23,400 nt of DNA, from positions 1 to 23,400 of the IMG/VR virus record IMGVR_UViG_3300048586_000303; one strand, 5' to 3'. Numbering within the stretch: the stretch's first letter is position 1; each line of letters begins with the position of its first letter. Positions 9,340 through 20,079 of the stretch are shown here, one piece after another. Below the pieces are notes generated by a model. The model was not told where the DNA came from. It saw nothing but the letters and a program-made list of their open reading frames with translations, and made no database searches. Origin of the DNA: a virus. A program made the position numbers and the translations under genes.

Positions 9340-10618
9340 CATCGAGAAGATGCGTGAGATCCCACCTAAGCAGTGGGAGCTTATCATCAACATCGACGAT
9401 ATCCGCATCAAAGCGCACGCGGTGGCGTCGCTGAACATGAACGAGAACTACCTAGAGGACGCCTTTGGTGAATACACGGTAGTTGCTATGTTTCAACCAT
9501 CCGACTTGACCAACGTGATATTCCCCGGCGCTAACCGACTAGAAGGCACGCTGGTTGCAAAGGACCGTTTAGGTATTGTAAGGTTCACCTACAAATATCG
9601 TCTGGTGTTAACAGAGAACCAGGACCCACGACTGGCCAATAACAGTTCTAAGTCTAGCGATATCCGCGAGTTAAACAATATCTCGCTAGTCACAGTGTCT
9701 TTCCAGATGATGGACCACGCATCGTTTGACCTGAGACTGGAACAGCACGGCGACATGTATCAAGACATGACAACGCTGGACGCGTTGGTACATGTATTGG
9801 CACAGCACCAGTTGAAAGATGACTACGGACAGGCTGATGCGGTAGCTGGGTTTGATATCACCAAGGGACATATCGAAACCAAACGGAATATAACGATTAA
9901 AGACGGCACGTTTGTAAAGGGCGTCTCTGACTATCTGCAAGAGCGGTATGGTGTATATAGCCAGGGTTGTGCTTGCTTCCTAAAAGACAAGATGTGGTAC
10001 ATATTCCCACCCTACGGTGTGGTGTCTGAAGGGGACAACACCAAGAACTTCCGCTTGGTTGTAATTAACGCACCGCCTGACAAATACACGAATATCCAAC
10101 GTAACTATCGGTTGGAAGGCACGACTGCTACGATCATTGCCACAGGTAACACAAGCCACAAAAACACCAGCGACGTAGACGCGTTAAACGGTGCCACTGG
10201 CGTAATGTATGCTAAGGGCGGTGCGCTATTAGGGGGGACGTCCAGAAAAGAAGCAGGCGTGATGTCAGGCGCTGAAAATTACATGAAGGAATACGGCACG
10301 TCAGAGTATCGTGGTAAAGAGAAAAACATCGCGGTACCTCAACGTACGTTCGTGTCAAACGAGGCTATCCTGACGACCACACTCGCTGCGAAAGCGGGGG
10401 ATATCGTTAAGGTAGTGTGGCAACACGGCGATATCCGTAAGCTCAGACCTGGTTGTGCGGTGACATTCATTACGCAAGACGAACGTCGCATCAAGACCCT
10501 GTACGGTACACTACTGGCGGCAGAGAGTTTCTCCAGTATCCCTGAGGGTGGTATCGCTGAACGCATGCACGTTGAAAACGTTACACTGACACTGTTCCTG
10601 AAACGTAACCCAGGATAA
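9302..10618 (+). CDS. Putative baseplate hub-like protein (438 aa)
   Basis: ATG 9302 (MSISQIDIIVRDNIEKMREI) is preceded by AGGA (9291-9294) with 7 bases of spacing and overlaps the end of the previous gene by 38 bases. Residues about 1-115 are beta-rich, like a barrel domain. The middle has a pattern seen in tail hub proteins of the gpD/T4 gp27 type: TTLDALVHVLAQHQL, later a helix and aromatic strand pair (SDYLQERYGVYSQG, KDKMWYIFPPYG). Residues about 290-350 are Gly/Ala/Ser/Thr-rich and probably flexible. The C-terminal 90 residues return to beta structure (GCAVTFITQDERRIKTLYGT). The hub call is a pattern-based inference; a generic virion protein is the fallback. No terminator follows directly. 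Confidence 0.45.
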   Translation: MSISQIDIIVRDNIEKMREIPPKQWELIINIDDIRIKAHAVASLNMNENYLEDAFGEYTVVAMFQPSDLTNVIFPGANRLEGTLVAKDRLGIVRFTYKYRLVLTENQDPRLANNSSKSSDIRELNNISLVTVSFQMMDHASFDLRLEQHGDMYQDMTTLDALVHVLAQHQLKDDYGQADAVAGFDITKGHIETKRNITIKDGTFVKGVSDYLQERYGVYSQGCACFLKDKMWYIFPPYGVVSEGDNTKNFRLVVINAPPDKYTNIQRNYRLEGTTATIIATGNTSHKNTSDVDALNGATGVMYAKGGALLGGTSRKEAGVMSGAENYMKEYGTSEYRGKEKNIAVPQRTFVSNEAILTTTLAAKAGDIVKVVWQHGDIRKLRPGCAVTFITQDERRIKTLYGTLLAAESFSSIPEGGIAERMHVENVTLTLFLKRNPG

Positions 10619-10671
10619 AAAATACAGCGGCTACAATACTATGTAGAACGCACCCTAACCAAGAGGTAAGT

Positions 10672-11589
10672 ATGTACCATAACCCTAACAACGTGATCGT
10701 CGTACACGGCATGGACGAGTACGCGGTTAACCATCTGTACGCCACCCTGAAACTCACCGACGTACCGCCACTGCCTGAAAACTACCGTGGCGACGTGCGC
10801 TGTGTACGTGAGTGCATCACTCGAAACTCCGGTAAAGCCTGGGAGTTGCAAGTGTACATCCAGGGCGAGCAAGCCGCCGGTACGGCCGAATGGGTACTGC
10901 ACCACAGCACCGTGTTCGCGGACGTGACCGAGAAAGCAGAAGACATCTTCAACATCAACGTCATGGCCCGCAAGTTCAAAGCGATCGCTAAAGCCTATGC
11001 GGCACTGGACTGGCATGCCAAGCCCAGCTCTGTGTACCTGATCGCAATGCGTGTAGCGCAGATGATGCACGACAATCCCAAGCTCGAGATCATCGATTAC
11101 ATCACCAACGAGATCTTCCAGGAGGAAGAGTGCACCGAGGTAGAAACCATCGGTATGTTGGAAGTCCTGGGTGCACAGTACCACGATATCCGTCGTGTGG
11201 ATACTATCGTGGTATCACGTTCGGTTCGTGTAGGTATCGAGCACGATCATGAGATTCTGTGCTGCTGGCCAGTTGTAGTGTGCAACAACAAGATCTCCTT
11301 TAACCAGTACATCCCTGGTCCGGTGATCTCCATGGGTAACCTGGCACGTCATCACAAAGTGATTGACATGAACACCAAAGATATTCGCTGGGCATGCTCT
11401 GCACAGTTTGAGATCGTTCAGGAGGACAAGGCGGCCGGCACCGCAATGCTCAAGAAATACCATGCTGAGAACGATACCTGGATAACCTACGACTGCGGCT
11501 TTGCTGGTATTCGTCCGGTCTACACCGACGGTCAGGTAGAAGCAGCCGGCGTAGTGGCGAAGGACGAGCCTTTTGTAGCGGTACACTGA
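10672..11589 (+). CDS. Unknown phage protein, separate transcription unit (305 aa)
   Basis: ATG 10672 follows AAGAGGTAAG. The 53-base gap before it contains TACAATACTATG (10632-10643), a possible promoter core. The protein (MYHNPNNVIVVHGMDEYAVN) looks globular and alpha/beta with scattered Cys and no catalytic motif I can name. Codon use is GC-ending and close to that of the chaperonin and capsid genes, unlike the tail genes just upstream, and a strong terminator follows at 11600. Together this suggests a unit expressed at high level on its own. Placement next to the chaperonin may be coincidental or may mean a folding-related partner or client; nothing in the sequence decides this. Confidence 0.6.
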   Translation: MYHNPNNVIVVHGMDEYAVNHLYATLKLTDVPPLPENYRGDVRCVRECITRNSGKAWELQVYIQGEQAAGTAEWVLHHSTVFADVTEKAEDIFNINVMARKFKAIAKAYAALDWHAKPSSVYLIAMRVAQMMHDNPKLEIIDYITNEIFQEEECTEVETIGMLEVLGAQYHDIRRVDTIVVSRSVRVGIEHDHEILCCWPVVVCNNKISFNQYIPGPVISMGNLARHHKVIDMNTKDIRWACSAQFEIVQEDKAAGTAMLKKYHAENDTWITYDCGFAGIRPVYTDGQVEAAGVVAKDEPFVAVH

Positions 11590-11647: not shown

Positions 11648-11682
11648 AGTGTGATGTACCACCCTAATCATTGGAGTTTGTG

Positions 11683-13236
11683 ATGAAATCTAAAGTAATG
11701 TTTTCCGGTAATGAAGCTCGTGATGGTCTGCGCCGCGGTGTAGACAAATTGTTCCTGGCTGTGGCCAGCACACTCGGCCCGTACGGTTCCAGTGTCATCA
11801 TCGAGAACGACAACCGTAAAGATAATGCCCCGACGGTCACCAAAGACGGCGTGTCTGTAGCCCGTGTAGTCAACTGGGACGATCAACTTGAGCAACTCGG
11901 TGCTCGTATCGTGCTGCAGGCTTCCAGCCAAGCCGATACTAAATCCGGCGATGGTACTACTACTACTGTGGTCCTGGCCAAGGCCCTGGTAGACGCTGCA
12001 AGCAAAATCGTTGCAAATGGCGAGCTGTCCATCGTGGTTAAAAAGCGTTTGGACAAACTGGCAGAAGATGTGGTCGCGTATCTGGAGCAGTACTCCGAGA
12101 AGTTCGAAGTCACTGATGAGGTTATCGCAAACGTAGCGCGTATCTCAGCAAACGGTGACAAAGCATTGGCGGATGTAGCCCTGGCCGCAGTGCGTGCGGC
12201 TAATGGCGGTCCTGTGACCGTTAAACCGTGGCGTGCGGAAGTGGACGAAGTCGAGGCACTGGAAGGTTCCATCATTACCGGTACCCCGATCAGCACAGAC
12301 GTCGTACCGCGCGATGACTCCACCCAGACTTTCGCGTTCCCGAACGTAGTCGTATTGGATGCTCGTATATCCATTGAGCAAGCCCGTGCATTGGCTAGCG
12401 CGTACAGCGGCACCCGTCCGTTGGTCATCTTTGTTACCGGCGCACGCGACGGCGTAGATGAATGGGTTGCTGAATGGAACTCCATCCCGGAGTCTCAGCC
12501 GGTGATTATCGTTGAAACCCCAGGGGCAGGGCAGAACCGTCGTCGCTATCAAGCGATCCTGGCGGAGATGGCAGGTACTGGGATCACCACTAACGTGCAG
12601 CATGTGGATGTGGGCACCTTTGCCGAATTCACCGTGTCCCAGCGCTACATGTGTATCTTCACACGTGCCAATATGCAGCCGACCATCGATGCATTGATCA
12701 AACAACGAGATAGTGAAGTCCGAGGTAGCCAGAAGTACAAACACCTGGACAACACGCTGCGATTCGTGCTGGGCCGTCGTGTAACTATCTCCGTAGGTGG
12801 TCTGACTGATGCCGACACCAAAGAGCGCAAAGACCGTATGGTCGATGCTGTTTCTGCAATCGAGTGTGCGAGAGATGGCGTCATCCCTGGCGGCGGCACT
12901 GTATTGGCACAGCTCGCCAACATGCACAAGGACACCGAACTGGCTGAAGCGCTGATGTTGCCGATGGCCAAAATCTACATGAACGGTGGCATGAACGACG
13001 TGGAAGCGTTGGCTACTGTGAAAAAGTCCTGCGAAGACGCCCGTGCAAACCAGAAAGACTATCCGCTGTTCTACGACCTGCTGGCCGGTGAATACGTGGA
13101 TCTGCTCGATGCAGAGTACGCTGTGTACGATCCTGTACGTGTTACCATCAACGCCATTCGTGCGGCGTGTGCGGTAGCGGGCACTGTGATCACCAGCAAC
13201 TGCTGCCTGGTAGAAGACCGCAACGGTCACTTCTAA
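11683..13236 (+). CDS. groEL: Phage-encoded GroEL-type (group I) chaperonin (517 aa)
   Basis: ATG 11683 (MKSKVMFSGNEARDGLRRGV) follows TTGGAG with 6 bases of spacing. Group I chaperonin signatures are in order: TLGPYGS (30-36), TKDGVSVAR with D55 (E. coli D52), GDGTTT with D90 (E. coli D87, ATP hydrolysis), VDAVSA with D388 (D398), PGGG (402-405), YDPVRV with D483 (D495). Equatorial, intermediate and apical domains are therefore complete (apical about 185-365). The apical region is strongly diverged: where E. coli has GYLSPYF (198-204), this protein reads TPISTDV, losing Tyr199 and Tyr203, which contact substrate and GroES. The Gly-Gly-Met tail is absent; the protein ends EDRNGHF. Phage EL gp146 is a related chaperonin shown to work without a co-chaperonin; no groES is visible here. 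Likely cytoplasmic ATP-dependent folding of phage proteins. It forms its own unit between two terminators. Confidence 0.95.
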   Translation: MKSKVMFSGNEARDGLRRGVDKLFLAVASTLGPYGSSVIIENDNRKDNAPTVTKDGVSVARVVNWDDQLEQLGARIVLQASSQADTKSGDGTTTTVVLAKALVDAASKIVANGELSIVVKKRLDKLAEDVVAYLEQYSEKFEVTDEVIANVARISANGDKALADVALAAVRAANGGPVTVKPWRAEVDEVEALEGSIITGTPISTDVVPRDDSTQTFAFPNVVVLDARISIEQARALASAYSGTRPLVIFVTGARDGVDEWVAEWNSIPESQPVIIVETPGAGQNRRRYQAILAEMAGTGITTNVQHVDVGTFAEFTVSQRYMCIFTRANMQPTIDALIKQRDSEVRGSQKYKHLDNTLRFVLGRRVTISVGGLTDADTKERKDRMVDAVSAIECARDGVIPGGGTVLAQLANMHKDTELAEALMLPMAKIYMNGGMNDVEALATVKKSCEDARANQKDYPLFYDLLAGEYVDLLDAEYAVYDPVRVTINAIRAACAVAGTVITSNCCLVEDRNGHF

Positions 13237-13245
13237 TCAAACAAC

Positions 13246-13279
13246 AGGGAGGGCTTCGGCCCTCCCTAGTTTCTTTTTT
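13246..13279 (+). terminator. Rho-independent terminator after chaperonin gene
   Basis: A perfect 9-base stem (AGGGAGGGC / GCCCTCCCT) with a TTCG loop is followed by AGTTTCTTTTTT. It lies 9 bases after the chaperonin stop. Confidence 0.93.
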
Positions 13280-13294
13280 GTCAAGGAGATAGAA

Positions 13295-13735
13295 ATGTTA
13301 CAAGCAACACCCAGAATGGTCGATCGCGTACGTGAAGAAACCGGACTATTGGTACATCACATCATCACATCCAATTCCGAAAAGTTAACCGTACGTCGCA
13401 TGGATCATATCCATGTCGAGGTAAGAATTCCTAAGAAGAACTGGTTCAGATACTTCGACGCTGTCAAGGCAAACTACATCCCAAAACCGCTACGTGAGTT
13501 GGATGAGGGGTATACTACTGATGTAATTTCGCAGATAGTAAATCTAAAGTATGAGGTATCTCCAGTGATCTTCAATTACCTCGAATTGAACAAGCCTGTC
13601 GTATCGTATAACCACAATGTAACCAAAGGCACCCTCACGGTGACATATTTCGATGAAACCAGGACCTTTGAGCTAGCCAAGTTGTTTAAACGCGACGAGT
13701 ATGATAGAGACTATATCAAAACTATCAACGGGTAG
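13295..13735 (+). CDS. Hypothetical small phage protein (146 aa)
   Basis: ATG 13295 (MLQATPRMVDRVREETGLLV) follows a good AAGGAGA site with 6 bases of spacing, right after the chaperonin terminator, so a promoter must lie nearby or be supplied by read-through. The protein is basic, alpha/beta, with the strand-rich centre typical of small soluble phage proteins. No motif is recognised. The next gene begins 5 bases after its TAG stop, so they are probably co-transcribed. Codon use is mixed (AT-ending codons common), unlike the chaperonin. Confidence 0.55.
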   Translation: MLQATPRMVDRVREETGLLVHHIITSNSEKLTVRRMDHIHVEVRIPKKNWFRYFDAVKANYIPKPLRELDEGYTTDVISQIVNLKYEVSPVIFNYLELNKPVVSYNHNVTKGTLTVTYFDETRTFELAKLFKRDEYDRDYIKTING

Positions 13736-13740
13736 TTGCT

Positions 13741-14259
13741 ATGCCGTACAGTATTCGCTTCAAATATATGCTGTGTGGTCAATCCAAACACATTGCCGGT
13801 ACCATCGTTAACTATAAGCAACACCAAGACGGTATCGAAGTGTGCGGTCATTATATTCCATTCACCGATATCCTAGAGGGACCTACGTATTGTTTGAGAG
13901 CAGACATACGTGACTACATCAACTTTAGGAGTATCGAGATGAGTGCATTGAAGGGACGCGTAGATCCAAACATTGAAGAGTTTCATGCCGTAGCCAAAGC
14001 ACATCGCGTGAAATTGAAAGAGCACTTCTCCAACCACCATCACCCCGACGAGGTAGAAGCGCTAGTGGCGTACTACGACCACTGGACACGAAATAATAAC
14101 ACGAGTGGCATCAAGGCAATAGAGCAGTACGCGGCAGAGATGAAACAGAATGCCAAACTTATTATCATGGAGCTAAGGAATCAAGACAATGTTGAGAGAA
14201 AGAGAAGAGTCACCCGTCATACACACTACGGAAGCAGACAGCCTAACCGAAGTCGCTAA
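13741..14259 (+). CDS. Hypothetical phage protein (172 aa)
   Basis: ATG 13741 (MPYSIRFKYMLCGQSKHIAG) sits 5 bases after the previous stop; the only ribosome binding candidate, GGGTAG, overlaps that stop and is weak, so translational coupling is likely. The C-terminal 30 residues are strongly basic (KRRVTRHTHYGSRQPNRSR), which may bind nucleic acid. A His-rich patch (FSNHHHPDEVEALVAYYDHW) occurs around residue 100. No family is recognised. The last 71 bases overlap another frame starting at 14189. Confidence 0.5.
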   Translation: MPYSIRFKYMLCGQSKHIAGTIVNYKQHQDGIEVCGHYIPFTDILEGPTYCLRADIRDYINFRSIEMSALKGRVDPNIEEFHAVAKAHRVKLKEHFSNHHHPDEVEALVAYYDHWTRNNNTSGIKAIEQYAAEMKQNAKLIIMELRNQDNVERKRRVTRHTHYGSRQPNRSR

Positions 14260-14347
14260 GAACCACCCGTTCGAGCGGCATCACCGCGGGACTTTCCGAC
14301 ACCTCGTCGGTAAAAACGCCCAATTGTTGTCTGCTTATAAAGTCTAA
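14189..14347 (+). CDS. Short frame (52 aa), probable 5' part of an interrupted gene
   Basis: ATG 14189 follows TAAGGAA (14175-14180... spacing 8), a good ribosome binding site inside the end of the previous gene. It encodes MLREREESPVIHTTEADSLT and on to LLSAYKV, then TAA at 14345-14347. After the TAA the same frame remains open for 39 further codons up to ATG 14465 and on to the stop at 14777-14779, so the two pieces look like one 196-codon gene split by a single stop. Alternatively this is an independent 52-residue peptide. No motif is recognised. The region 14260-14464 holds no other gene that I can support. Confidence 0.5.
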   Translation: MLREREESPVIHTTEADSLTEVAKNHPFERHHRGTFRHLVGKNAQLLSAYKV

Positions 14348-14464
14348 TTCAGAGACAGTATCCTGAATCTCCTACCTAACAACACATACGAGCTGATCCT
14401 TTCTGCAAAGCTCGTACACTCGGACCCTCCGTTACCCGGATACGTCGTTCGAGAGATTGCGCTG

Positions 14465-14779
14465 ATGACGGCGTTGAAATCCTATGAGGAAGGCAAGATC
14501 CTGGTGACTGATGAGGCAATGGAGCGGCTGGGACTGCACAACAAAACCCACTACTGCAATAGCATTGTCGAAGCCATCAAACTCGCTACACAGCACCGTA
14601 ACATCACATACGGCTACGGTGAAGATGAGATTGACGCAACGTTCATAGTGAACACCGGAATAGGGCAAGTAGTCTATAAGCTCAATTTCCACGCGGCGAT
14701 CAAAGAACCCATCGCTATTATCGGTCGTCTGATCAAACACATCAACGATCGTTATAACGAGATACTATCGAGAGATTAA
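14465..14779 (+). CDS. Hypothetical phage protein (104 aa), possibly 3' part of an interrupted gene
   Basis: The first usable ATG of the downstream open frame is 14465 (MTALKSYEEGKILVTDEAME); the only ribosome binding candidate is a weak GAGAG about 9 bases upstream. The product is a small alpha/beta protein with no known motif. In the same frame, sense codons reach back from this ATG to just after TAA 14345-14347, reading FRDSILNLLPNNTYELILSA and onward; that stretch has protein-like composition and contains no ATG, GTG or TTG. So this 104-residue version may be an N-terminally clipped remnant of a longer protein starting at 14189. A terminator follows directly. Confidence 0.5.
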   Translation: MTALKSYEEGKILVTDEAMERLGLHNKTHYCNSIVEAIKLATQHRNITYGYGEDEIDATFIVNTGIGQVVYKLNFHAAIKEPIAIIGRLIKHINDRYNEILSRD

Positions 14780-14782
14780 ACA

Positions 14783-14818
14783 GAGGGGAGGGCCGAAGCC
14801 CTCCTCCTCTTTTTTTTT
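14783..14818 (+). terminator. Rho-independent terminator between convergent genes
   Basis: GAGGGGAGGGC / GCCCTCCTCCTC pairs around a CGAA loop with a one-base bulge, followed by nine T residues (14810-14818) on the plus strand. On the minus strand the loop reads TTCG but only a short T run (TGTTT) follows, so it is probably weak there. It separates genes ending at 14779 (+) and 14822 (-). Confidence 0.88.
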
Positions 14819-14821
14819 CGT

Positions 14822-16369
14822 TTAAGCAGCCCAAGACAATCCCAGATCGCTTTCGGGTAGTCGAGCAGAACCTTCATTGACTGAAGCCAGTGTAAGCTTA
14901 ACTTCTTTATCAATGTCCCATGGCAAGATGCCGACAGGCCCAAATGGAATAACGCAGTAGCGATGCGATACAGGTGTATCGATAATAGTACGGTGTTTAC
15001 CACGTTGTACTTCGAGGTAGCTACCCTCCTGACGATCTTGTATACCAATGAACAGCTCACCGTCCACCACGTTATCTACAGTAGTGCAGCGGTCGTAATA
15101 ACCACGACCTGGCAGGTTACGTACGTAGGTAAACGGATCCATCGCTTTGAACGCTTTCGCAGCAGGCGACAGTTGATGCGGTGAAATCATTACAGCACTA
15201 CGACGAGTGGTGTCGTTGATACGTGCAGTACCCAAGTCCTTAAAGCGACGATACCAGTCACGGACCTCACTACCGGGCACACCATTACCCAGGCCAGTCA
15301 TCTTAGCTTCGCCAGCATAGTCCACTCGGACGCCCAGTACTTGGTAACCATCAGCTTCAAACGCTTCGATAGTTTCACGCAGTTCAGTAATACCAAACTC
15401 ACTACCGGTGTGACGTTCGAACTCGATGTCCCAACCGTTCTCTTGTACTTTGGACTTGATATACTGCTCAGCTTCCGCAGCGTCAAAGTTGGTCACGTCC
15501 ACGGTCTCACCGGTGAAGTGTTCTTTAACCATGCGGTAGATGATTGGCATGTTGATCTCGAGGTCGTTCTCCAGCGAGATATCAAGCCACAGACCTTTCT
15601 TGCCCGGTTCCACAAAGTCCTCGGCTTTGTTAAACAGAGCCATACTGAGGTAGAGAGACAAACTGAACGTTGTCTTTGCGTTATGCGGCAATGCAGGTAT
15701 TACGATACATTCACCTGGACGGACACCGTTATTAACGCCGAACATCCGGTTCATGTCTTTCCAGCCGACCTTGTAGGACTTACCGTTAATGACCTCTTTA
15801 GATCTCGACAGTGCTTTACTGATACTGCCGTCATTACGAGTACTAACGGATTCTACAAAACTACCCGGCTTACCTTTACGACGTTTAGGCTTTGCCGTTT
15901 CCAACGCAGTCTGTAGCTCGGCTATAATATCGTCATCACTGATATTACGCTGATCTACACGAGACAGTGAACTAATCAGTGTGGATTTAATTTTTGCCTT
16001 AGTGACCACCTTATACAGTTCAGTCGTCAGCGAAGCGACGGTGCGACGTGCTTCTTCCTCGCCGACACCTTCGAACAGGTCTTTCAGCGCTTTCTCCGCA
16101 CTGGTATCGAATGGGGAGTAAACCTTCAACCCAGTCAATAAAGTACGGACGTCGAATTTGGCGTTGCCAGAGATGATGTCGTCTATATACTTTTTGAGAT
16201 AGACTAGCGTAGCACGCTCGTCACCTTCGCTGACAGTCTCAGGCAACTTAACGTTTTTGATGGCGTCTTTGATAAGGCGATGAAATTCACCTGCACAGGC
16301 CTGGTATACGGTCTCACAGTGCAGGATTGATACACATTGTATGAGTGTAAGCTTATCTTCGTTTAACAT
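14822..16369 (-). CDS. DnaB/SF4-family helicase-like ATPase with altered Walker A (515 aa)
   Basis: Start ATG 16369 (MLNEDKLTLIQCVSILHCET), preceded by AAGGGTGAG. An N-terminal helical half (1-200) leads into a RecA-like ATPase: RPGECIVIPALPHNAKTTF (217-235) aligns with the DnaB Walker A, with K232 and T233 kept but the usual Gly before Lys replaced by Ala; DISLEND (263-269) matches the DnaB SLE block with catalytic E267; VLGVRVDYAGEAK (344-356) is Walker B with D350; SPHQLSP (396-402) corresponds to the sensor SQL motif; KHR (458-460) matches the KQR arginine-finger block. The length fits replicative helicases, so unwinding at the phage replication fork is the likely role. The altered P-loop could lower activity. 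It is the only minus-strand gene in 1476-23400. Confidence 0.8.
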   Translation of the reverse strand: MLNEDKLTLIQCVSILHCETVYQACAGEFHRLIKDAIKNVKLPETVSEGDERATLVYLKKYIDDIISGNAKFDVRTLLTGLKVYSPFDTSAEKALKDLFEGVGEEEARRTVASLTTELYKVVTKAKIKSTLISSLSRVDQRNISDDDIIAELQTALETAKPKRRKGKPGSFVESVSTRNDGSISKALSRSKEVINGKSYKVGWKDMNRMFGVNNGVRPGECIVIPALPHNAKTTFSLSLYLSMALFNKAEDFVEPGKKGLWLDISLENDLEINMPIIYRMVKEHFTGETVDVTNFDAAEAEQYIKSKVQENGWDIEFERHTGSEFGITELRETIEAFEADGYQVLGVRVDYAGEAKMTGLGNGVPGSEVRDWYRRFKDLGTARINDTTRRSAVMISPHQLSPAAKAFKAMDPFTYVRNLPGRGYYDRCTTVDNVVDGELFIGIQDRQEGSYLEVQRGKHRTIIDTPVSHRYCVIPFGPVGILPWDIDKEVKLTLASVNEGSARLPESDLGLSWAA

Positions 16370-17040: not shown

Positions 17041-19335
17041 ATGGCACGTCAGTCCGTATCCGGAACTCAGGTGCAGGAAGTAGCCGAACGCATTAAGCGT
17101 TTCAACGCTGCAGCCCTGAACGCTGGCACCTCCAAAGTAGGTGTCGAGAACTTCATCAACGCCAACCAGTCCTACGACCTGGGTCGCGATGCCGTCGAAA
17201 AAACCATTCGCACCGTGATCGGTCAGTCCATGGGCATCAAAGTCGGCAACGAAGCCGCCGAAGGCCAGGTTACTCAAAACCAGATGGAAATGGCTATCAG
17301 CCAGAACCACACCAAGGCCCAGATCCGCGCTGCTGCCAACATCATGGCCGTTGCTCAACACGGCAAACTCGGCCTGGAGCAATACCACAAGCAAGCGATC
17401 GCTGAAGTCGGCCCCGCCAGCAAAGGCGTGAACGATATCGGTATCGTACAGGTAGGTAGCTACGGCTACAACTCCATGCCTGCCGGCGAATACTTCAACA
17501 ACAACGCCGAGCTGGACAAGCACGTTGGTGCCTCCATCGACTTCAACCTGCAAGCGGCCCGCCAGAACGACGAGTGGGAGCACATGTTCCCGACCGTTAC
17601 CCTGGACCCGTCCGAAATCGGCATGGAAGTTGACATCAACCTCCTGTACGTACACCAGCAGGTGCGTCATGCGATGAACCGTAAGGACAACATGCCTTAC
17701 AAACGTCGCAACATCATGGATGCTGTAACCGATCCGACTGTGTTCGACGACAACACCATCAAGTTCCATCCGTACTTCAAGGAAGACCCGGCCGGCGACT
17801 ATCGCGAGTACTTCGTACCGGAAACCCTGAAGCAGCCGACCTTCCCGGTCAGCGACAGCCACAGCGTCCGTACCAACCCGCTGCGTTTCGGTACCGGCGA
17901 GAAGCCCCTGTTGAGCCTCTCCGCTCATCCGGGTTCCACCTCTGCCACCTCTCGTGACGAGACCGATGAATTCGATCCGCGTTTCCGTATGCAGGATCTG
18001 TTCGTTCTGATCTCCGGCCAGGCACAAGACCCGGCCAAAGACGAAGGTCAACTGGTGCACTTCTCCACCCTGAACCTGCCGAAGTCCGCCTTCCAGCTGG
18101 CTCAGGAAGGCAACCGCCGTACCCTGCTGCTGCACTTCCGCGAAGCGCGTTTCAACCTGACCGGTGCCCGTAAGGACGTCGCAGGTAACGAAGTCGTTGC
18201 TCTGTCGAACGTGAAAGACGGCGAGTACATGGTGACCTTCACCGTGGAAGTCAACGCAGAGATCAACCTGCAAGATGGTATCGAGAAGCACGCTCGTGCG
18301 TTCCTGACCATCGAGAAGGTCTACGACAAAGACGGTACCGAGATCGACACCAAGTCCGGCCCGGGCAAAACCCTGCTGGAGAGCTTCAAGCTGACTCCGT
18401 ACGCGTACAACTGGGCTGCCACCCTGTCCAACGCCAACCGTCGTAGCCGTGGTACTCTGCTGGACAACCAAGCAGAAGCCGAGCGTTACAAGACCACCCT
18501 GCAGTCCCCGATCACCATGCAGAAGCCGGTGAACTCTGGTGCTGCTCCGGAAGAGTCCCAAGTAGCCAACCTGATCCTGGCCGCCCGTATGCGTAACAAC
18601 GCTCAGGCCGGTACCAAGCTCCTGAACTACGAAGAGACTCTGGCTGAAGTTTACGCCGGTCACGTCAACAAGTACGAAGTCGCCTCTATCGAAGGCGTCG
18701 GTCGTTGGTACGTCCACCCCTGGTACGAGAAGAAGACCTTCGATGCGCTGGAGCAAGTTGCTGCGCTGCAGTCTTCCGACATCCCGGGTCAGCTGCGTGT
18801 TGCTATCCTGAACATGCTGCGCGATCAGGTCAACCGTGCGTTCCTGGAATCCCGTTTCGAGCCGGCTCTGCAAGTGTACTCCAAGTACACCGTGAACCGT
18901 CCGACCATCGGTATCCTGACCGACCCGGTCCTGCGCAACTGGTTGTGGATGCAAGGTGATACCCGCGCCCTGGGCGATGGTTTCAACTACTACATCGACC
19001 ACACCTACGATGAGCGCTTCCGCGACACCATCCGCTGGTACTTCAGCACCACCACCGAAGGTTTCCACGCTCTGCACTTTGGTGCGTTCCTGTGGGTATC
19101 CGAGCTGGTGACTGCTACCAGCATGTCCCGTGACAGCCGTATCGCTGATGAACTGACCGTTCAGCCGCGCTGCGAGCACATCGTCAACTGCCCGATCATG
19201 GGCCGTGTGGACGTGGTCAACCTGTCCAAGTTTGTTGTCAGCCAAGGTGGCATCGTCACCAACGCCAAAACCGCTCTGGACGACGCGATCGACGAAGAAG
19301 AAGTACCGGTAGGTCCGACCCCTGGTCAGCCGTAA
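17041..19335 (+). CDS. Probable major capsid protein, phiKZ gp120 type (764 aa)
   Basis: ATG 17041 (MARQSVSGTQVQEVAERIKR) follows TATAAGGAA. The length matches phiKZ-type capsid proteins (about 750 residues). The N-terminal 160 residues are helical, rich in Ala, Asn and Gln, and hold several S/A/G-X-E sites suited to a gp175-type head protease (GVE 34-36, GNE 69-71, GLE about 111-113, AGE about 148-150), fitting a cleaved scaffold-like region. The rest is mixed beta with acidic C-terminus (DDAIDEEEVPVGPTPGQP). Codons are almost entirely host-preferred, GC-ending types; it has its own leader and strong terminator, as expected for the most abundant virion protein. A candidate RNA polymerase beta-N gene downstream repeats the phiKZ gp120-gp123 order. 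The identification rests on length, context and general resemblance; no alignment was run. Confidence 0.75.
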   Translation: MARQSVSGTQVQEVAERIKRFNAAALNAGTSKVGVENFINANQSYDLGRDAVEKTIRTVIGQSMGIKVGNEAAEGQVTQNQMEMAISQNHTKAQIRAAANIMAVAQHGKLGLEQYHKQAIAEVGPASKGVNDIGIVQVGSYGYNSMPAGEYFNNNAELDKHVGASIDFNLQAARQNDEWEHMFPTVTLDPSEIGMEVDINLLYVHQQVRHAMNRKDNMPYKRRNIMDAVTDPTVFDDNTIKFHPYFKEDPAGDYREYFVPETLKQPTFPVSDSHSVRTNPLRFGTGEKPLLSLSAHPGSTSATSRDETDEFDPRFRMQDLFVLISGQAQDPAKDEGQLVHFSTLNLPKSAFQLAQEGNRRTLLLHFREARFNLTGARKDVAGNEVVALSNVKDGEYMVTFTVEVNAEINLQDGIEKHARAFLTIEKVYDKDGTEIDTKSGPGKTLLESFKLTPYAYNWAATLSNANRRSRGTLLDNQAEAERYKTTLQSPITMQKPVNSGAAPEESQVANLILAARMRNNAQAGTKLLNYEETLAEVYAGHVNKYEVASIEGVGRWYVHPWYEKKTFDALEQVAALQSSDIPGQLRVAILNMLRDQVNRAFLESRFEPALQVYSKYTVNRPTIGILTDPVLRNWLWMQGDTRALGDGFNYYIDHTYDERFRDTIRWYFSTTTEGFHALHFGAFLWVSELVTATSMSRDSRIADELTVQPRCEHIVNCPIMGRVDVVNLSKFVVSQGGIVTNAKTALDDAIDEEEVPVGPTPGQP

Positions 19336-19357
19336 TCCGTAACTTTGGTACGTTACT

Positions 19358-19390
19358 CAGGAGGGGCTTCGGCCCCTCCTGTTATTTTTT
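19358..19390 (+). terminator. Rho-independent terminator after capsid gene
   Basis: A perfect 10-base stem (CAGGAGGGGC / GCCCCTCCTG) with TTCG loop is followed by TTATTTTTT. It starts 22 bases after the capsid stop. Confidence 0.95.
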
Positions 19391-19436
19391 GCTGTGTCTT
19401 CTTATATATGTAAATCGACCAGACGAGTGCATAGCT

Positions 19437-19613
19437 ATGGGACATACACACATCTTTGGCGTATCACTGCCTTATAATAGAACAACCATTACTTCACACG
19501 GCGACCTAACCCGCGTCAAGCGGGTTATTAAAGTGACCGGCATGCCTTTGCAATTCGTTATTTTGCTCTATACACGCATGTCTATGTTTAACCGACTGCG
19601 AGGGAAATCGTAA
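19437..19613 (+). CDS. Small hypothetical protein (58 aa)
   Basis: ATG 19437 (MGHTHIFGVSLPYNRTTITS) gives a 58-residue basic product ending RLRGKS. The ribosome binding site is poor (only GACGAG some 10 bases upstream), and a TTG-initiated extension back to 19389 would begin inside the terminator T tract, so it is rejected. Support is the TAATG overlap with the next gene, typical of coupled phage genes, and mixed codon use like the genes that follow. An AT-rich stretch TTATATATG (19402-19410) between the terminator and this gene could belong to a promoter. No motif. Confidence 0.45.
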   Translation: MGHTHIFGVSLPYNRTTITSHGDLTRVKRVIKVTGMPLQFVILLYTRMSMFNRLRGKS

Positions 19614-19906
19614 TGTTTCACGAACCTAGCGATGTAGGTACTCTTCGACCTATCGTCATACGCGGCTGTGACGATATTATCGATGAGATGGTTTCTAGAG
19701 GTACGCTTAAAGAATGCGTATCGTATCCCGACCTTCCTGGTAGCCTGGCCGTTCAACCGATGTACCGACACATTACCGAGCCGATGCCGGTGACCCGCGT
19801 TATGCCTATATTGGAGTTACATGATGTTTTATTACGATCTTCACGTGCCGCTGAGGCCGACGTACGAGTTTCAGATAACGGCGAGAGTGAAACGGATCCG
19901 GTCTAA
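19613..19906 (+). CDS. Small hypothetical acidic protein (97 aa)
   Basis: ATG 19613 overlaps the previous stop (TAATG) and is preceded by GAGGGA. The product (MFHEPSDVGTLRPIVIRGCD) has an acidic C-terminus (AAEADVRVSDNGESETDPV) and no named motif. Its 3' end overlaps the next gene by 83 bases in another frame. That overlap is unusually long, so one of the two frames may be shorter than annotated, but both have plausible ribosome binding sites. Confidence 0.45.
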   Translation: MFHEPSDVGTLRPIVIRGCDDIIDEMVSRGTLKECVSYPDLPGSLAVQPMYRHITEPMPVTRVMPILELHDVLLRSSRAAEADVRVSDNGESETDPV

Positions 19907-20063
19907 CGCCCAACGTTACCGGTTTAAAGCACTCAAAGGCAATACTCTGCAACACCCTGGCTGGGTGTATTGGGGCCAGGCTGTAGCGTATAACGCTAAG
20001 AATGCGTTATCCGAAATCCTGTACACGCACATCTGCAATAACCACAGTTCCACGAAAGCTTAG
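19824..20063 (+). CDS. Small hypothetical basic protein (79 aa)
   Basis: Of two adjacent ATGs (19821, 19824), the second lies 7 bases after TTGGAG (19811-19816), the spacing used by other genes in this window, and is chosen. The product (MFYYDLHVPLRPTYEFQITA) is basic with Arg/Lys clusters (ARVKRIRSNAQRYRFKALKG), which may mean RNA or DNA binding, and contains an aromatic patch (HPGWVYWGQAVAYNAK). No family is recognised. The TAG stop forms part of the inverted repeat at 20059-20079. Confidence 0.5.
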   Translation: MFYYDLHVPLRPTYEFQITARVKRIRSNAQRYRFKALKGNTLQHPGWVYWGQAVAYNAKNALSEILYTHICNNHSSTKA

Positions 20064-20079
20064 ATATATATTATCTAAG
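20059..20079 (+). promoter_or_regulatory. Inverted repeat with ATATATTATC element before gene at 20097
   Basis: CTTAGATA (20059-20066) and TATCTAAG (20072-20079) form a perfect 8-base inverted repeat around TATAT. It contains ATATATTATC (20066-20075), identical to the element upstream of the chaperonin. The ribosome binding site GGAGG (20081-20085) follows one base later, so in RNA the hairpin would abut it. It could be a promoter, an operator or a translation-control hairpin; there is no T tract, so it is not a terminator. Confidence 0.4.

Follow-up and report, generated by a model that had tools for sequence, protein, structure and literature searches.

Organization of the locus

The window, i.e. 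the whole stretch of DNA that was analysed, is a virus record of 23,400 bases and a fragment of a phiKZ-like jumbo phage. This assignment follows from the helicase, the capsid identities and the phage GroEL; no close relative of the phage was present in the searched collections. A DnaB-like helicase, encoded at 14822-16369 on the minus strand, shares 40.7% identity with the helicase of Vibrio phage pVa-21 (KY499642) and approximately 35% with the SPN3US-, Derbicus- and Machina-type enzymes. For the major capsid protein (17041-19335), identity with its pVa-21 counterpart is 38%. The nearest relatives that searches with the helicase and the capsid brought up reach no more than about 37-41% identity. 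A stretch of 743 nt (19336-20078) separating the capsid gene from the long gene that follows contains small overlapping ORFs only.

Three orphan genes are located between the phage GroEL and the helicase, and the last of them is the interrupted frame described here (Table 1). The GroEL-type chaperonin just upstream of this unit (11671-13236; PHROG 5725, E = 1e-83) is about 28-30% identical to the best matches listed in phage records, and its start is likely ATG 11683 rather than TTG 11671. The stem-loops of the two terminators are exact inverted 19-nt copies (13248-13266 and 14786-14804) that flank the unit 13295-14779, and the window holds only these two copies. The three-orphan unit may represent an exchangeable cassette.

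Table 1. Features of the orphan unit and its borders (positions in the window).
Feature	Position	Strand	Remarks
Intrinsic terminator after GroEL	13246..13267	+	stem-loop exactly reverse-complementary to that at 14786-14804
First orphan gene of the unit	13295..13735	+	146 aa; no significant family match
Second orphan gene of the unit	13741..14259	+	172 aa; no homologue found; overlaps ORFa by 71 nt
ORFa	14189..14347	+	52 codons from ATG; TAAGGA site, SD energy -6.0; likely N-terminal part of an interrupted gene
Interrupting in-frame TAA	14345..14347	+	TAA ends 9 of 17 other window genes
Start-free stretch in the ORFa frame	14348..14464	+	39 sense codons; weak-to-moderate coding signal
ORFb	14465..14779	+	clearly coding, 104 codons; either the C-terminal part or a separate gene
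Alternative in-frame GTG start	14504..14506	+	strong SD-like AGGAAGG upstream, duplex energy -8.5
Intrinsic terminator ending the three-gene unit	14785..14806	+	5 nt past the frame end; minus-strand hairpin also for the convergent helicase gene

Sequence and translation agree with the layout given in the preliminary description, in which 52 codons run from ATG 14189 to TAA 14345-14347 and the frame continues through ATG 14465 to the stop TAA 14777-14779. They likewise agree that the 39 sense codons behind the first TAA lie in the frame of ORFa and contain no ATG, GTG or TTG. The interruption is codon 53 of a joined frame of about 196 codons. ATG 14189 falls within the upstream ORF, and the resulting overlap of 71 nt compares with a maximum of 38 nt elsewhere in the window.

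The candidate starts differ in quality. A good ribosome site had been described for ATG 14189, and its energy of -6.0 is indeed within the range of the other genes. ATG 14465 is weakly preceded, as had also been described: its energy is -3.0, a level that 40% of the ATGs in the window attain. GTG 14504 has an energy of -8.5 and could be the start of a shorter C-terminal protein.

Coding signal and similarity searches

The preliminary description held that open, protein-like sequence lacking a start is hard to explain unless both pieces once formed one protein. The composition is indeed coding-like, but the argument is weaker than claimed. In random sequence of this composition, 39 stop-free codons have a probability of ~0.18, and an open frame alone is therefore weak proof. 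At gene starts in the window and in four related phage loci, an upstream open extension of at least 39 codons was found in only 4 of 78 cases.

For a more specific measure, codon usage was trained on the window genes, with a leave-one-out scheme over the genes for the reference distribution. On this scale, 14261-14464 (67 codons, stop excluded) ranks at the 10th percentile among coding windows and at the 98th among off-frame windows; for 14348-14464 the corresponding values are the 15th and the 98th percentile. ORFb has a score of 0.450, higher than every off-frame window of the same length. The coding score before 14465 is low for genes of this phage, and the first 60 codons of two other window genes score lower still (-0.02 and -0.03). 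GC content by codon position points in the same direction as the codon score, with 0.60/0.34/0.61 for 14261-14464 compared to 0.56/0.38/0.60 in all genes (permutation p = 0.0007, uncorrected for the choice of this place) and 0.59/0.33/0.59 for 14348-14464 (permutation p = 0.0075). A simulation with independent codons is less favourable: it puts 14261-14464 (67 codons) in between what random and what coding sequence would give, with 2% of the random and 0.1% of the coding simulations lying beyond the observed value. The empirical windows were preferred over the simulation, since real coding windows are more dispersed than simulated ones. Overall, composition gives moderate support to coding in 14261-14464. 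As in a pseudogene, a single in-frame stop lies within a frame that is otherwise open through 14779 and is flanked by coding-like composition, moderate for 14261-14464 and strong for ORFb.

Similarity searches gave no homologue of either the joined protein or ORFb by tblastn in 50,697 phage records, in peptide-pattern scans of IMG/VR and of species genomes, or in 42 related virus records. The pattern-based scans catch close relatives only, so that a distant homologue may be missed. In an exact-pattern scan across the stop a second copy was absent, and sequence searches of Pfam, PHROGs and the PDB returned nothing meaningful. A profile comparison of the joined protein with three small-gene families from relatives of pVa-21 gave no match. 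Two hits were rejected. A tblastn match in Aeromonas phage CF8 spans the stop (residues 28-97, E = 3) but is regarded as chance because it is out of frame inside a gene of 1306 aa; a 27% match in the related record L080 (E = 0.018) is situated inside a long repetitive protein and was likewise taken as chance. Two single-sequence structure models, whose mean pLDDT values of 35.5 and 38.8 indicate very low confidence, disagree around residue 93.

Interpretation of the interrupted frame

Presumably, a single orphan accessory gene of some 196 codons occupies 14189-14779 and carries one nonsense codon at position 53, a reading that we consider probable. The preliminary description had proposed that the two pieces were one protein. 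This is favoured by the composition of 14261-14464 and by a start that is good at 14189 but poor at 14465, from which we infer the former unity of the pieces; a homologue of any part that could prove it was not found in the collections searched. The terminator directly behind the frame end and the unaltered meaning of the stop codon are in line with a joined gene. TAA terminates more than half of the other window genes, so the code is not a reassigned one, and the listed window genes contain no internal TAA. The 71-nt overlap with the upstream ORF, the low score before 14465, the failure of the searches to find a homologue of the joined protein and the discordant low-confidence models count against a joined gene.

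Several causes of the interruption had been put forward, of which a nonsense change or a sequence error is favoured here, and read-through or re-initiation is not. The TAA would be either a genuine mutation of recent date in the phage that was sampled, or else a variant or an error of the metagenome contig. A recent event is suggested, as the frame has gathered no further stop or break. In the contig as it stands, the first ribosome site would give rise to a peptide of 52 residues, and little or none of the C-terminal part would be produced. Re-initiation at ATG 14465 is unlikely, given its distance of 117 nt from the stop and its weak ribosome site.

The main rival explanation takes ORFb as an independent, complete gene with its start at ATG 14465 or GTG 14504, and ORFa and the 39 codons as intergenic sequence or a remnant that is open by chance. 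We regard this as rather unlikely. In its favour, open stretches of this length are not rare by chance, as calculated above, the strong coding signal begins only at 14465, and GTG 14504 is preceded by the strong SD-like stretch. Moreover, weak energies also occur in two other window genes (-3.0 and -3.8). However, this explanation does not account for the coding-like codon score and GC distribution of 14261-14464. Same-strand neighbour genes in the window are mostly within 81 nt of each other, whereas a gene beginning at 14465 would leave a gap of 205 nt after 14259 in a compact unit. The SD-like stretch, finally, coincides with Glu-Glu-Gly-Lys codons and is easily fortuitous.

It is improbable that ORFa, with 52 aa, and ORFb are two small genes sharing a frame by chance. 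The start of ORFa is good, and short accessory genes are common at this place in relatives, but the coding-like composition between the two would be left unexplained and ORFb would still have no good start at 14465. Even less probable is a displaced C-terminus, in which ORFa would belong to the upstream gene 13741-14259 by a frameshift (an error or a programmed event) and ORFb would be independent. Within the overlap, the end of the upstream ORF shows no independent coding signal, and the helicase-adjacent gene of pVa-21 encodes 184 aa compared to 172 in the upstream ORF. The upstream ORF is, however, not detectably related to the family of this 184-aa gene, a slippery site is not evident on inspection of the overlap, and neither frame is clearly preferred there. 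Very improbable, lastly, is a regulated read-through or recoding of the TAA that would yield products of 52 and 196 residues from one message: the frame past the stop is open and coding-like, but the TAA is followed by T (TAA-TTC), a CARYYA-type motif is absent from this context, the downstream fold is not unusual (z = -1.5), neighbouring genes usually end in TAA, and an Rfam search of the interruption for intron-type RNA found no family at the gathering level. The same database gave two sub-threshold sRNA matches at or near the terminator.

Returning to the favoured nonsense-interrupted gene, the finding is ordinary and matters little. If it is real, an orphan accessory gene beside a phiKZ-like helicase is being lost, consistent with the variability of this block among relatives. 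For annotation, ORFa and ORFb should be marked together as a probable interrupted gene, not as two proteins.

Comparison with related phages

In all relatives inspected, small genes that differ among phage groups lie between the genes for virion proteins and the helicase. The phiKZ-like jumbo phages pVa-21 and pVp-JHP1101 resemble the window in the order of virion proteins, a block of small genes and a convergent DnaB-like helicase, followed by a hypothetical gene and the major capsid protein. In contrast to the window, no GroEL is annotated at the equivalent place, and their small genes (152, 146 and 184 aa, one of them a winged-helix regulator) are without detectable similarity to the three genes of the window. 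In the equivalent block of pVa-21, the gene at 10616-11074 of record L003 encodes a winged-helix protein that matches Penicillinase_R (E = 4e-7) and has relatives in other virus contigs.

Jumbo phages of the SPN3US, Derbicusvirus, Erskinevirus and Machinavirus types also carry variable small hypothetical genes beside a DnaB-like helicase, which have no detectable relation to those of the window. OBP and Pseudomonas phages of 210 kb are among the matches listed but are distant, with helicase identities of about 21-24%. The comparison with EL and OBP that had been suggested is uninformative, because OBP and the 210-kb Pseudomonas phages are distant and the nearest syntenic relatives hold different genes at this place.

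Ordinary nonsense-interrupted phage genes, be they pseudogenes or contig variants, differ from 14189-14779 in that no intact relative representing the ancestral state was found for the latter. They share with it the arrangement of one stop in an otherwise open, coding-like frame.
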